Positions 3,388 to 8,931 of a stretch of 47,597 bases of DNA are shown here, in pieces. A program made the position numbers and the translations under genes. Origin of the DNA: Deinococcales bacterium (GTDB taxonomy: Bacteria > Deinococcota > Deinococci > Deinococcales > JAAFIG01). The stretch spans positions 1 through 47,597 of the forward strand of contig JAAFIG010000037.1 in NCBI GenBank assembly GCA_013298595.1. Direction: 5' to 3'. A model generated the notes under the pieces. That model ran no database searches, was not told the origin of the DNA, and saw only the letters and a list, made by a program, of their open reading frames with translations. Every line of letters starts with the position of its first letter. The stretch's first letter is position 1.

Positions 3388-3492
3388 TATGGATGTAATA
3401 ACTCACAGTATTGGATGTAACACTCACAGTATTGGATGTAACACTCACAGTATTGGATGTAACACTCACAGTATTGGATGTAACACTCACAG
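3388..3492. repeat. 21-bp tandem repeat array, four perfect units plus one degenerate
   Basis: Four identical units of TATTGGATGTAACACTCACA+G lie at 3409-3429, 3430-3450, 3451-3471 and 3472-3492. A degenerate unit (TATGGATGTAATAACTCACA+G) precedes them at 3388-3408. The period equals two turns of B-DNA, so bound proteins would sit on one face. The array lies between two divergent genes and ends 42 bases before the -10 box of the S41 lipoprotein gene. No spacers are present, so this is not a CRISPR. Confidence 0.95.
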
Positions 3493-3533
3493 CGTTAAGC
3501 AAAAACATCATCTTATGCTTAATAACCATGTGC

Positions 3534-3539
3534 TACAGT
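3534..3539 (+). promoter_or_regulatory. -10 box of leaderless S41 lipoprotein promoter
   Basis: TACAGT, six bases, then ATG at 3546. No Shine-Dalgarno precedes the start, and the -35 region is weak. The location favours the 3546 start over a longer ORF through the tandem repeats. Confidence 0.5.
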
Positions 3540-3545
3540 TTTTGT

Positions 3546-4886
3546 ATGAAACGAATTGCCTTACTTGGATTAGTAGCACTTGCCGCTTGTGCACCAGCTC
3601 AAAAAGCCAGCAGTGGCAACAGTGCCGAAGACTTATTTAACCAAGTTTCGGGTTTACTCGAGGAAAATTATTATGGTTTTAATTTACCGCAATTACCAAC
3701 CGTGGTGGCTCGAGCCAAAACCGATCTGCAAAAAGCGTGTGCTAGTGCAGGCTCGAGTTGCAAAACTGAAGCGGCGTATGACGTACTTAATACCATGTTG
3801 GATAAATTCGGTGATCCGCACACTTTTATCGAAAATCCAGCCGAGTACGCTGAATCAAACCGTACCCGTTCTGGACAAGGTGGCAGTTTCCCTATTCTTG
3901 GCATTCGCAGTGTCTACCGTGCTAACAGCAACGGACGATTGATTATCGAAGCCTTACCTGGTATGCCAGCCGAAGCTGCTGGTTTAACTCGAGGTGATCT
4001 GATTGTTGCTCTTAATGGCAAACCATTACCTAAAAATGATGAAGCCAGCAATCTTGCCTTACGTGAAGAAGTTCGTAGTGGTAAAGAATTTGTGATCACA
4101 CTGCGCCGCGCAGGACAAACCCGTGAAGTTCGAGCCATAGGTAAATTACCAACCGTTCCTGCTTTACCAAGTCTGAAAAAATGGGCAGGGGTTCCCTCGA
4201 GTATCGCCATTATCCGCATACCAGATTACTTACCTCCACAAACGGCTGATATTGTCCATAAGTTGGTTAATCAAGTCAGTAAAAGTGGTGTTAAAAATAT
4301 CATTCTTGATTTACGCAGTAATAGTGGTGGACGTGCCACCGACTGCCTGAGTGTAGCAGGGATTTTTGTTGGACGAACAGGTATCATTTTTGCTAAGAAA
4401 ACCAGCCAAGAAGCCTATACGTATAACAACGGCACTGTCACTATTGCAGGTAAAGGACGAATTGGTGTTTCTGAACCTGCCAGTTTTAGTGGTGGTGTTG
4501 TCACACTGGTAGACCAAGGTAGTGCCAGTTGTGCTGAAATCACCCCAGTCATTCTACAAAACGCTAAACGTGGCGTTGTTATTGGCGAACCCACATACGG
4601 CATTCTGAACACTGGCACAAACTCATTTGACTTAACCGATGGTGGCGGATTAACCATCACCACTGTCCGTACCTTAGACCAAAGCGGCACAGCTTTTAAT
4701 ACTCGAGTTACACCAAATATTGCGTTGAAAGAAGATTTAGACAGTTTAGAAAGCAAAGCTCAAGATGTAATGATAGACCGCGCTGTGAAAGTGTTACAAG
4801 GCAACGATGCCAGCCTTGAGACACAACCGATACTGAAATTACCTAAGCGCCTGAGTTTACTCGAGTTACAAAAAGCTTGGAATTAA
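3546..4886 (+). CDS. S41-family lipoprotein lacking the catalytic Lys
   Basis: Exported lipoprotein of 446 aa; the lipobox LVALAAC places the lipidated Cys at residue 15. It has a PDZ-like segment (AAGLTRGDLIVALNGK) and an S41 core. The nucleophile motif reads GSASCAEI (Ser328), but the region that is GEKTYGKG in the ctpA product reads GEPTYGILNTGT, so the dyad lysine is gone. A DPHT motif with His92 is present, as in S41 relatives that use a Ser/His dyad such as nisin-resistance protein. It may therefore be an active Ser/His protease or a binding protein. The ORF is open further upstream through the repeat array, but the lipobox and -10 box favour 3546. Confidence 0.85.
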   Translation: MKRIALLGLVALAACAPAQKASSGNSAEDLFNQVSGLLEENYYGFNLPQLPTVVARAKTDLQKACASAGSSCKTEAAYDVLNTMLDKFGDPHTFIENPAEYAESNRTRSGQGGSFPILGIRSVYRANSNGRLIIEALPGMPAEAAGLTRGDLIVALNGKPLPKNDEASNLALREEVRSGKEFVITLRRAGQTREVRAIGKLPTVPALPSLKKWAGVPSSIAIIRIPDYLPPQTADIVHKLVNQVSKSGVKNIILDLRSNSGGRATDCLSVAGIFVGRTGIIFAKKTSQEAYTYNNGTVTIAGKGRIGVSEPASFSGGVVTLVDQGSASCAEITPVILQNAKRGVVIGEPTYGILNTGTNSFDLTDGGGLTITTVRTLDQSGTAFNTRVTPNIALKEDLDSLESKAQDVMIDRAVKVLQGNDASLETQPILKLPKRLSLLELQKAWN

Positions 4887-4955: not shown

Positions 4956-6308
4956 ATGAAAAAGTTCTTATTCGTTGTACTATTCTCGAACTTCATTTCT
5001 GTCACTTTAGCCAGTCCAGCCCAAGATTTATTTGCCCAAGCACGCAATTTTTTAAGCACAAATTACTATGGTTTCCCAGCTGTCAAACTCGAGGATGCCT
5101 TGCAACGCGGCGATGAAAAACTCAAAGCAATATGCGGCTCGGATACAAAATGTTCCTTTAAACAAGCCCGTCCTGTTATCCAAGCAGTGATTGATGAACT
5201 TAAAGACCCGCACACGTACTATCAAATCCCAGCAGAAAATGCCAGTGAGCAACAATATCAGGCTGGTCAGGGAGCCATTTTCTTACGTATTGGCATCAGT
5301 TGGATATACCGTGAAACCAGCAATGGGTGGCTTGTTTTAGATGTGATGTCAAATGCTCCTGCCAAAGCGGCTGGCATTACTCGAGGCGATCTGATTATTG
5401 GTATTGATGGAGTGGCTTTACCTAAAGGTCAAGAACTGAGTAATAAAATTCTGATCGAAACAATTCGTTCAGGTAGAGAATTTACTTTCACCGTGGCTCG
5501 AGGTGCAGATCAACGCACTGTCAAACTGGCTGGTCAAGAAATTCCTTTTCCTTGGTTACCAAGTTTATATCAACCCAGTGGTATGTCCGCCAATACATTT
5601 GTTCTCAGTATTTCAGATTTTAACTTTCCAACAGCTGCCCAAGAAATCCATAACCTTGTCCGTGAGGCAATCCAAAAAAATGCAAAAACCATTATTCTAG
5701 ATTTACGCGACAACTTAGGTGGTTTTGTACAACAATGCGCTGCTGGAATTGGTGCCTTTTTAGGTGATACTGGTATCACAATTGCTAGTCGCCGCGAAAA
5801 AGTCACTTATGGATACTCGAGTGATGGCACTATTTATGTAGACAACAATGGACAACGCTCCCAACGGGGTTTAATCCGTCAACCTGTACATTTTACAGGA
5901 CAAGTTATCACTTTGGTCAACACTGCCACATCAAGTTGTGGTGAAAACTTTGCTGCCAATTTACAAATAAGTCAGCGCAGCATCGTCATTGGCGAACCCA
6001 CTTTTGGTATTTTGAACACGGGCACGCTGACCTATAACTTACTTGATGGTAGCGGTTTAACCATTACAGCTATCCGCATTCTAAGACCTAATGGTGAAAT
6101 CTTTCCTGTGCGTGTCACCCCAGATATTTCCGTACCAGACGATTACGACACCCTCGAGAAAACAGCTCGAGATACCATGCTTGAAAAAGCTATTCAGACC
6201 CTAAATAACCCAACTACACTCGAGATTCAATCTGTTTTACCTGTTGTACTTCGTATTTGGAATCCTCGAGCGATAGTTCCTAGGGCAGTAAGCATTCAAC
6301 ACAATTGA
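4956..6308 (+). CDS. Exported S41-family protein, paralogue of the upstream gene
   Basis: Protein of 450 aa with a Sec signal peptide ([20 protein letters not shown]) and no lipobox. It is collinear with the 3546-4886 product: NYYGF near the N-terminus, DPHTYY (His86), a PDZ-like [15 protein letters not shown], a Ser region ATSSCGENF (Ser327) and [12 protein letters not shown] in place of the lysine-bearing GKG. Both copies share the same loss, so it predates their duplication. The gene is 69 bases downstream on the same strand, and its stop overlaps the -35 box of the leuS leader promoter. Function unknown beyond the fold family. Confidence 0.83.
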
Positions 6309-6334
6309 CCAATCTGCACCAAGCAGGCTATATT
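6305..6334 (+). promoter_or_regulatory. leuS leader promoter
   Basis: TTGACC (6305-6310), 18-bp spacer, TATATT (6329-6334). Transcription would begin at or next to the ATG at 6341, making the leader peptide leaderless. The -35 box overlaps the stop codon of the S41 gene. Confidence 0.75.
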
Positions 6335-6340
6335 ACACCC

Positions 6341-6385
6341 ATGATCCGCTCTGGACTACTTTCACTAGGGGCATTACTCGGGTAA
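6341..6385 (+). CDS. leuL: leuS leader peptide, Leu-rich, 14 aa
   Basis: A 14-codon ORF encodes [14 protein letters not shown]. Five of 14 residues are leucine, including adjacent pairs CTA-CTT and TTA-CTC. The ATG is six bases after the TATATT -10 box. The last five sense codons form the 5' arm of the antiterminator. A Leu-rich leader ORF followed by mutually exclusive hairpins upstream of leucyl-tRNA synthetase is the standard arrangement for ribosome-mediated attenuation: low charged tRNA-Leu would stall the ribosome early and allow read-through. The symbol leuL is descriptive. Confidence 0.72.
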
Positions 6386-6408
6386 GCATTTCTCGAGTAA
6401 TAAGCCCC
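6368..6408 (+). promoter_or_regulatory. leuS antiterminator hairpin
   Basis: GGGGC (6368-6372) plus ATTACTCG (6373-6380) pair with CGAGTAAT (6394-6401) plus GCCCC (6404-6408), leaving two bulged A residues and a 13-nt loop. The 3' arm sequesters the 5' arm of the terminator, so the structures exclude one another. A ribosome reaching the leader stop would cover the 5' arm. One strand of the stem contains a CTCGAG motif. Confidence 0.7.
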
Positions 6409-6431
6409 AGTCTTGTGTCTGGGGCTTTTTT
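6402..6431 (+). terminator. leuS attenuator terminator
   Basis: AAGCCCCAG (6402-6410), an 8-nt loop, CTGGGGCTT (6419-6427), and a T run to 6431. It is a rho-independent terminator 55 bases before the leuS ATG, after the leader ORF and not at a gene end, which argues for regulation. Confidence 0.88.
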
Positions 6432-6486
6432 ATTTTCGATATCTCTCATGGCGAGGCAAGCCCCGTCTACAGTAAGCGAGGAACTT

Positions 6487-8931
6487 ATGACTGAAGAAAA
6501 AAATCGTTTAGAAAAGTACAATCCGCACGAAGTTGAACCGCGTTGGCGTGCCACTTGGGAGTCAAGCAATATTTATAAAACCGATTTGCACTCGAGTAAA
6601 CCCAAGCATTACATGCCAACAATGTTTCCGTACCCCAGTGGTAATTTACATATTGGGCATTGGTATGCGTTTAGTATTCCTGATACTAGGGCGCGTTTCA
6701 TGCGAATGCAGGGTTTTGAAGTGTTATTCCCAATGGGTTTTGATGCCTTTGGATTACCTGCCGAGAACGCTGCTATTAAAAATAATATTGACCCTGCCAA
6801 GTGGACATACAGCAATATCGAGTACATGACAACGCAGTTTAAGCGCATGGGCACAATGATTGATTGGGAAACCACCGAATTAAAAACTTGTGACCCCGAG
6901 TATTACAAGTGGAATCAATGGTTTTTTGTCCAGTTTTATAAGCGTGGTTTGACATATAAAAAAGAATCCTTTGTTAACTGGGATCCTGTAGATAACACCG
7001 TACTTGCCAACGAACAAGTGATTGATGGACGCGGCGACCGCAGTGGCGCTTTAATTGAGCGGCGCTTGATGAGCCAATGGCACATGAAAATCACTGATTA
7101 CGCCGAAGAATTACTGAATTTTGATGGTCTCGAGTGGTCAGAAAAAGTACGGGTGATGCAAACCAATTGGATTGGTAAAAGCGTTGGTGCAGAAGTAGAT
7201 TTTGCCACCCCCGCTGGGGCTTTAAGGGTTTTTACCACCCGTCCTGACACAATTTTTGGCGCAACCTTTATGGTACTTGCTCCTGAGCATCCGATGGTGG
7301 CAGCCTTGACCAAACCCGAAAAGCTCGAGGAAGTGACTGCGTATCAAGCCGTAGCAAAACTGGCTTCGGACATAGACCGCACTGCCGAAGGTAAAGAAAA
7401 AACGGGTGTGTTCTTGGGGTCAACTGCCAGCAACCCGTTCACTGGCAAGGAAATCCCAATTTTTATTTCTGATTATGTGCTGGTGACATATGGCACAGGC
7501 AGCATCATGGGTGTGCCAGCCCAAGATGCCAGAGACTGGGATTTTGCTAAAAAATTCAATCTCGAGATTATTCGTACCGTACAAACACCTGCCGACTGGG
7601 ACGAGAATAAACCATTTATGGGCGATGGCGTGGCGATCAATTCTGATTTCTTAAATGGCTTAAATGTCACCGAAGCCAAAACCCGCATGATGGATGAACT
7701 CGAGCAAACAGGCAAAGGCAATCGTAAAACCACTTTTCGGTTGCGCGATTGGCTGATTAGTCGTCAGCGTTACTGGGGAACTCCGATTCCAATTATTTAC
7801 TGTGACAAGTGCGGACAAGTGCCAGTGCCCGAAGAGGATTTACCAGTTTTACTGCCTGAGAACCCACAGTTCTTACCCACAGGTCAAAGTCCTTTAACTT
7901 TACTCGAGGATTGGAAGAATTGTACTTGCCCAAAATGTGGTGGGGCAGGTGTGCGTGATACTGATACGATGGATTGTTTTGTGGATTCGAGTTGGTATTT
8001 TTACCGTTTTCTCGACCCAAAGAACACCCAAAGCGCCATCAATTCGGAATTGGTGAATAAGTGGAGTCCAGCTGATTGGTACACCGGTGGTATCGAACAT
8101 GCAATTCTGCACTTGTTATATGCACGTTTCTGGACAAAAGCTATGCGTGACATGGGCTTAATCAATTTCGGTGAGCCTTTTACCCGCCTGATGAACCAAG
8201 GCATTATTCTGGGCGAAGATAACGAAAAAATGAGTAAGTCTCGAGGCAATGTTATTGACCCTGACAATTTGGTTGATGAGTACGGCACCGACACCGTGCG
8301 TTTGTATTTACAATTTATTGGACCTTGGGATCAAGGTGGACCGTGGGCACCTAAAGGTGTCAATGGCTTGGCAAATTGGCTCGGGCGAGTCTGGAATTTA
8401 TTCCTTGAAAGTCCAGATAAAACAACCGAAAATATTCCCTTGATTGATCTCGAGTACGCCATTCACTACGCTTTGAAAAAAGTTACGGAGGATACCGAAG
8501 CGTTTAAGTTTAATACCAGTATCGCCGCGATGATGGAATTATCCAATTTTCTTGGTAAAGCCAAACGCAGCAATTTGTACGGCACAACCGAATGGAACAT
8601 TGCCCTCGAGACATTTAACTTGATGTTAGCACCATATGCACCACACATTGCCGAGGAAATCTGGCATCGCACAGGGCATATTGGCAGCGTGCACCTCGAG
8701 AGCTGGCGTGCTTTTGACCCGAGCAAATTGGTCAAAGATACCTTTGAAATGGTGGTGCAAGTCAACGGTAAAGTACGTGGTAAAACCGAAGCCCCGAGCA
8801 ATATCACCGATGCTGAAGCTTTTGCACTGGCTCGAGGTTTAGAGAACATTCGCGGGCATGTTGAAGGCAAAGAAACCGTGAAAGAAATTTATATCAAAGG
8901 ACGCTTAGTCAATATCGTTGTCAAAGGGTAA
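6487..8931 (+). CDS. leuS: Leucyl-tRNA synthetase
   Basis: Cytosolic class I synthetase of 814 aa that charges tRNA-Leu. HIGH motif at residues 55-58 ([10 protein letters not shown]), KMSKS at 581-585, and a CP1 editing domain inserted between with [19 protein letters not shown]. Cys pairs CDKC and CPKC lie in the inserted zinc-like region, and the C-terminal anticodon-binding and compact domains end VNIVVKG. The ORF extends upstream to 6415 inside the attenuator, but the ATG at 6487 with GCGAGGA ahead of it gives the normal bacterial N-terminus ([20 protein letters not shown]). A perfect terminator follows. Confidence 0.97.

Follow-up and report, generated by a model that had tools for sequence, protein, structure and literature searches.

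Candidate leader-peptide attenuation of leuS in Deinococcales, with a conserved CTA codon at a near-constant distance from the antiterminator

Textbook attenuators sense runs of codons, and the aminoacyl-tRNA synthetase genes of Firmicutes use T-boxes. Which device, if either, controls a leucyl-tRNA synthetase gene in the Deinococcales is the question raised by the present locus, which lies in a 47,597-nt stretch of DNA (the window, analysed in full) from a 4.6 Mb genome whose order also includes Meiothermus and Truepera. An earlier note had read the interval ahead of leuS as a ribosome-mediated attenuator. With high confidence, based on sequence comparison, we interpret this interval as a leader-peptide transcription attenuator through which leuS would sense the charging of the CUA-reading tRNA.

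Organization of the leuS leader

The promoter, ATG, 14-codon ORF, antiterminator and mutually exclusive terminator described in the earlier note were all recovered at the same positions (Table 1). A consensus scan of 5500–7200 returned the promoter at 6305–6334 as the single promoter-like site. The S41-peptidase-like ORF that lies upstream (end 6308) has a stop codon sharing bases with the −35 element, and TTGAC(A/C/G/T)-17/18-TAnnnT stands at the equivalent place in relatives from families f1–f3 (see below). The leader ATG occupies the predicted first transcribed base, which would make the mRNA leaderless, and the 6-nt interval between −10 element and start codon recurs in 40 of 46 leuS leaders. 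The ORF reads ATG ATC CGC TCT GGA CTA CTT TCA CTA GGG GCA TTA CTC GGG TAA, and the leader peptide of a same-genus relative is MIRSGLPRLGALLE. Upstream of leuS, two neighbouring S41-peptidase-like ORFs (3411–4886 and 4956–6308, the second scanned against families) resemble a tandem duplication.

Table 1. Features of the leuS locus in the window (forward-strand positions)
Feature	Position	Strand	Remarks
Promoter	6305–6334	+	−35 TTGACC 6305–6310; 18-nt spacer; −10 TATATT 6329–6334
Leader ORF	6341–6385	+	ATG 6341, 6 nt past the −10 element; 14 codons, 5 Leu; TAA 6383–6385
First CTA codon	6356–6358	+	Putative sensor (hungry) codon; nine codons ahead of the stop
Antiterminator hairpin	6368–6408	+	5' arm 6368–6382; 15 bp; 3' arm 6392–6401 and 6404–6408, 2-nt bulge
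Intrinsic terminator	6402–6433	+	Arms 6402–6410 and 6419–6427, then a T-rich tract
Shine-Dalgarno-like GAGGA of leuS	6478–6482	+	leuS itself is not leaderless
leuS, leucyl-tRNA synthetase	6487–8931	+	TIGR00396, 957 bits (cut-off 548)

The antiterminator loop (6383–6391) contains the leader stop codon, and the 43-nt fold reaches −18.7 kcal/mol (z −5.0), compared with −17.1 kcal/mol (z −5.4) for the terminator at 6402–6427. The two hairpins are mutually exclusive, GCCCC at 6404–6408 being common to both. For the entire 96-nt leader RNA the z-score is −5.8, with none of the shuffles folding equally well; all folding was done at 37 °C, far below the growth temperature of Thermus. A combined scan of both strands of the window for a promoter, ATG, short ORF and terminator returned the leuS leader as its sole match, and the same scan gave no match in 30 shuffled windows.

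Two repeats were also observed. Between terminator and leuS, positions 6450–6469 (GGCGAGGCAAGCCCCGTCTA) are similar to a short dispersed repeat (GTAGGGGC..CTTGCCTCGCC), a type also spotted by eye at two more loci of this genome, L002 and L003. The palindrome CTCGAG is highly iterated, with 263 copies in the window (1–47597) against 4.5 expected, and its density is ~5–7 per kb in the window's family, ~1–3 at Deinococcota loci sampled outside that family and 0.3 at Chloroflexi/Firmicutes loci. Since it is abundant in the genome and one copy lies inside the antiterminator, some of the antiterminator complementarity could be a by-product.

Conservation of the leader and its CTA codon

The leuS upstream regions were taken from the order; class- and phylum-level searches gave families f1–f5, a set that does not include Deinococcaceae. 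A finder that was blind to leucine codons, relying only on promoter, spacing, short ORF and terminator, identified 46 distinct leuS leaders distributed over all five families, including Truepera, Meiothermus and Thermus-like genomes. Every one of them contains an in-frame CTA (46/46), whereas the +1 frame contains CTA in two; these counts come from related genomes, so the leaders are not independent. CTA makes up 69 of the 513 sense codons (13.5%), compared with 0–0.46% in coding genes, and each of the other leucine codons accounts for 0.8–1.4%. The shortest Thermus-like leaders, ATG AGC CCG GCC AGG CTA GTC CCC TAA and GTG CGC GCG TCC CTA CGT CCC TAG, each hold a single leucine codon. The codon directly 5' of the sensor encodes arginine in 24 of the 46 leaders, compared with 40 of 421 codons (9.5%) elsewhere.

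In a looser survey such an ORF was present in 58 of 81 leuS upstream regions, three further leaders (L021, L022 and L126) being recognized by other criteria; about 20 of the 81 regions, chiefly from certain Trueperaceae genera, had no leader. By the criteria used, no comparable leader was found at non-Deinococcota leuS loci of a named genome collection. In Meiothermus L126 and L127, leuS lies downstream of a tRNA-Leu-like gene, and the terminators of their leaders (MFSALLTGR and MSNALLARR) lack a clear T tract, which gives an impression of decay.

The alignment of relatives proposed in the earlier note was borne out in part. The leucine codon is kept and the pairing persists, but within genera there is little strict covariation, since the shared arms hardly vary there; between families the arm sequence is fully different, yet pairing is retained. 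Loss of the ORF or of the alternative pairing, named in that note as grounds for abandoning a ribosome-mediated attenuator, was not seen in the 46 leaders, which supports that reading. Its remark that such a leader appears unusual does not hold, the arrangement being the rule across the order in its own lineage; moreover, leuS attenuators have been predicted in Streptomyces (PMC1262725), and a leaderless leuS leader peptide has been reported in S. lividans (PMC8079986).

Spacing of the putative sensor codon and proposed mechanism

Counted from the first base of the A-site codon, ribosomal protection extends ~12–13 nt downstream. Each leader was folded over the stretch that begins at its first CTA and finishes with the terminator 5' arm, without the ribosome edge being supplied. 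In 35 of the 46 leaders the first base of the antiterminator fell between CTA+12 and CTA+17 (median +14), the remaining 11 lying outside this range. The position of the antiterminator is held most tightly relative to CTA (SD 3.2 nt), compared with 7.3 nt from the start codon, 8.9 nt from the stop and 10.5 nt from the terminator arm. ORF length does not account for this spacing, since the distance from CTA to the stop varies strongly (8–10 codons in f1–f3, 3–4 in most f4 and f5 leaders).

Placement of a virtual ribosome gave a similar picture. Moving it two codons past the first CTA lowered sequestration of the terminator arm by a mean of 0.30, compared with 0.09 at a random codon, and none of 20,000 random-codon draws reached a drop of 0.30. 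In the window's leader, modelled sequestration is 0.44 when the ribosome sits on the first CTA and has fallen to 0.0 once it has moved one codon on; the later leucine codons border the antiterminator arm or fall within it. The five leucine codons recorded in the earlier note are thus present, but the model points to the first CTA alone, rather than to the cluster, as the probable sensor.

Segment folds gave mean z −2.0 over all leuS leaders, with values of −5.6, −3.8 and −2.2 in the window's family. A plain shuffle test of the fraction of the terminator arm sequestered at CTA was significant in Thermus-like and some Meiothermus leaders and not significant in f1 and f3, partly because five of nine terminator-arm bases are shared; segment z-scores and the spacing analysis were used in its place. 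In Thermus-like leaders, the segment just 5' of CTA pairs further downstream as an extra protector hairpin. Their terminator arm is mostly free without a ribosome (0.05–0.48 sequestered), and a default OFF state is therefore predicted for them, as in classical attenuators. For the window's leader the predicted default without a ribosome is the antiterminator.

The leader thus combines an ORF with cognate codons, an intrinsic terminator and an exclusive antiterminator, and in silico a ribosome at the sensor frees the antiterminator whereas one at the stop masks it. The start site, leaderless initiation, stalling, direction of regulation and leucine dependence are predictions from the DNA, and events would run as follows. 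The first transcribed base would be the A of the leader's start codon (6341) or one beside it, with the ribosome loading straight onto the 5' end. With charged tRNA-Leu plentiful, the ribosome would clear the CTA at 6356, arrive at the stop at 6383 and cover 6368–6382; the antiterminator could not form because these bases are covered, the terminator at 6402–6427 would fold, and RNA polymerase would halt near 6433, leaving leuS OFF. With charged tRNA-Leu scarce, the ribosome would pause while CTA occupies the A site. The front edge of the paused ribosome, ~12–13 nt downstream, would coincide with the start of the antiterminator, whose freed 5' arm would pair with 6392–6408 and remove GCCCC from the terminator, so that leuS would be transcribed. 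Two states would suffice for this leader, ON with the ribosome at CTA and OFF with the ribosome at the stop. Scarcity of charged tRNA-Leu is most likely the condition under which leuS expression would be raised.

Other synthetase genes, alternative readings and known attenuators

Comparable leaders precede metG in all five families (L217–L222, with L219 from the same genome as the window, and L261–L285), carrying one or two internal Met codons, usually as CGA ATG, together with a terminator. All 24 have an internal ATG, and in 18 of them a CGA codon comes directly before it; the antiterminator starts mostly 9–14 nt 3' of this ATG, and most z-scores range from −2 to −5.6. This set is less blind than the leuS set because it was chosen by eye from the finder output. 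Codon content, rather than antiterminator spacing, was checked for tyrS and pheS. The tyrS leaders of f1 and f2 (L235, L232, L231 and L226) contain CGA TAT, extended to CGA TAT TAT in two of the four, and the pheS leaders (L255, L256, L252, L254, L258 and L257) contain TTT or TTC, with Ser-Pro-Phe common to f1 and f3 and a stable hairpin at the leader stop showing no obvious overlap with the terminator arm. The strongest argument that a codon, and not an RNA motif, is being read is that the triplet follows the synthetase.

No such leader was found in the leuA upstream regions of 15 genomes, used as a control, or at valS and ileS of the same genome, and nothing coherent emerged at thrS, serS, hisS, proS, glyS and trpS loci. 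The absence from leuA in 15 genomes and the incoherence of the other synthetase loci argue that the finder is not promiscuous. At serS (L188 and L189) a possible Ser-rich leader with a conserved S-S-F-x-x-S-S-P was noted.

A broader reading would extend this control to leuS, metG, pheS and tyrS across the phylum, through leaderless mini-ORFs (down to 7–9 codons), a single cognate sensor codon and a fixed ribosome-footprint length before the antiterminator. The arginine codon, in particular CGA, preceding the sensor would sharpen the stall because CGA is decoded slowly. We put this extension forward tentatively, as somewhat less probable than its opposite. If true, such leaders would play the part that T-boxes play for Firmicutes synthetase genes.

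Among the alternatives to attenuation of leuS, the least improbable, though very unlikely, is a regulatory RNA that binds protein or tRNA in the manner of a T-box, CTA being an untranslated recognition motif. T-boxes are on record for the Deinococcus-Thermus group (PMC3766115), and the frequent arginine at the codon before the sensor looks as if a sequence motif had been kept. However, Rfam gave no match to a T-box or other family in the window, at leuS or at the synthetase loci searched in the same genome; CTA keeps to the reading frame of a start codon that lies 6 nt past the −10 box; the triplet switches to ATG, TAT or TTT/TTC to match the synthetase; and only ~90 nt separate the start from the terminator end, with no common fold retained. 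Slightly less credible again is a translated leader that delays leuS constitutively or aids its reinitiation without sensing leucine. Leader genes near structural genes have indeed been proposed as reinitiation aids, Deinococcus-Thermus included (PMC4833913), but the distance from leader stop to gene start peaks there at 10–11 bp, whereas here it is ~100 nt with a terminator between, and neither the cognate codon nor the 12–17 nt spacing is explained. The weakest proposal, that the hairpin terminates the S41-peptidase-like gene, which ends on the same strand ~95 nt ahead of it, and that the short ORF arose by chance, is already contradicted by a same-genus relative (L007) whose leader is present beside an upstream gene of apparently opposite orientation and by retention of the leader, always with in-frame CTA, in 46 distinct sequences with differing neighbours. 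We therefore retain leader-peptide attenuation as the preferred reading.

In E. coli, the trp, leu and pheST attenuators couple leader translation to the choice between terminator and antiterminator, with CUA codons in leuL; those leaders are Shine-Dalgarno-led, use codon runs and need a 1:2 hairpin for OFF, whereas the window's leader would be two-state. Leaderless polycysteine ORFs were reportedly described in mycobacteria by Canestrari et al. in 2020 (as cited in PMC13236596); they reportedly also act as leaderless regulatory short ORFs sensing one amino acid, but through Cys-codon runs and at other genes. Closer in target are the classical attenuators predicted upstream of leuS in Streptomyces avermitilis and S. 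coelicolor (Seliverstov et al. 2005, PMC1262725), which share a leader ORF with Leu codons, an antiterminator and a terminator; they belong to another phylum, they are not known to have a single conserved codon or fixed spacing, and the likeness is one of description, descent aside. The same source places the actinobacterial LEU element, a conserved pseudoknot, upstream of leuA, whereas the attenuator here targets leuS and the leuA loci have no leader. The S. lividans leuL2 leader peptide of leuS (MRAVRLLLSEPR), leaderless by RNA-seq (PMC8079986), also precedes a terminator-like hairpin and has Arg ahead of its Leu run; it differs in coming from an actinobacterium and in having three Leu codons in a row, whereas here one CTA can suffice and metG follows the same plan. 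The two-state logic has a counterpart in the Mycobacterium tuberculosis ilvB1 attenuator, where the antiterminator is masked once the ribosome has reached the stop codon and stays free when the ribosome stalls (PMC13236596), but ilvB1 is a biosynthetic operon with four regulatory codons (LVVI) and a 166-nt leader.

In the open literature we found no description of a leuS attenuator for this phylum; the survey of Lopatovskaya et al. (2010), which possibly lists such cases, lay outside the search. What is likely new, judged from these comparisons, is the phylum, sensing by one codon, a spacing ruler of ribosome length, and the spread over leuS and metG with probable tyrS and pheS cases. One rare codon seems to be enough, and the distance from CTA to the antiterminator appears to be dictated by ribosome size and to persist while the hairpin sequences change completely. 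If this is true, Thermus and its relatives, which are easy to purify from and whose ribosomes and RNA polymerase are well known, would possess natural attenuators of very small size at several tRNA synthetase genes, and transcription-translation coupling and leaderless initiation could be studied on RNAs of <80 nt. The lineage would then also provide an example of synthetase genes being regulated without T-boxes.
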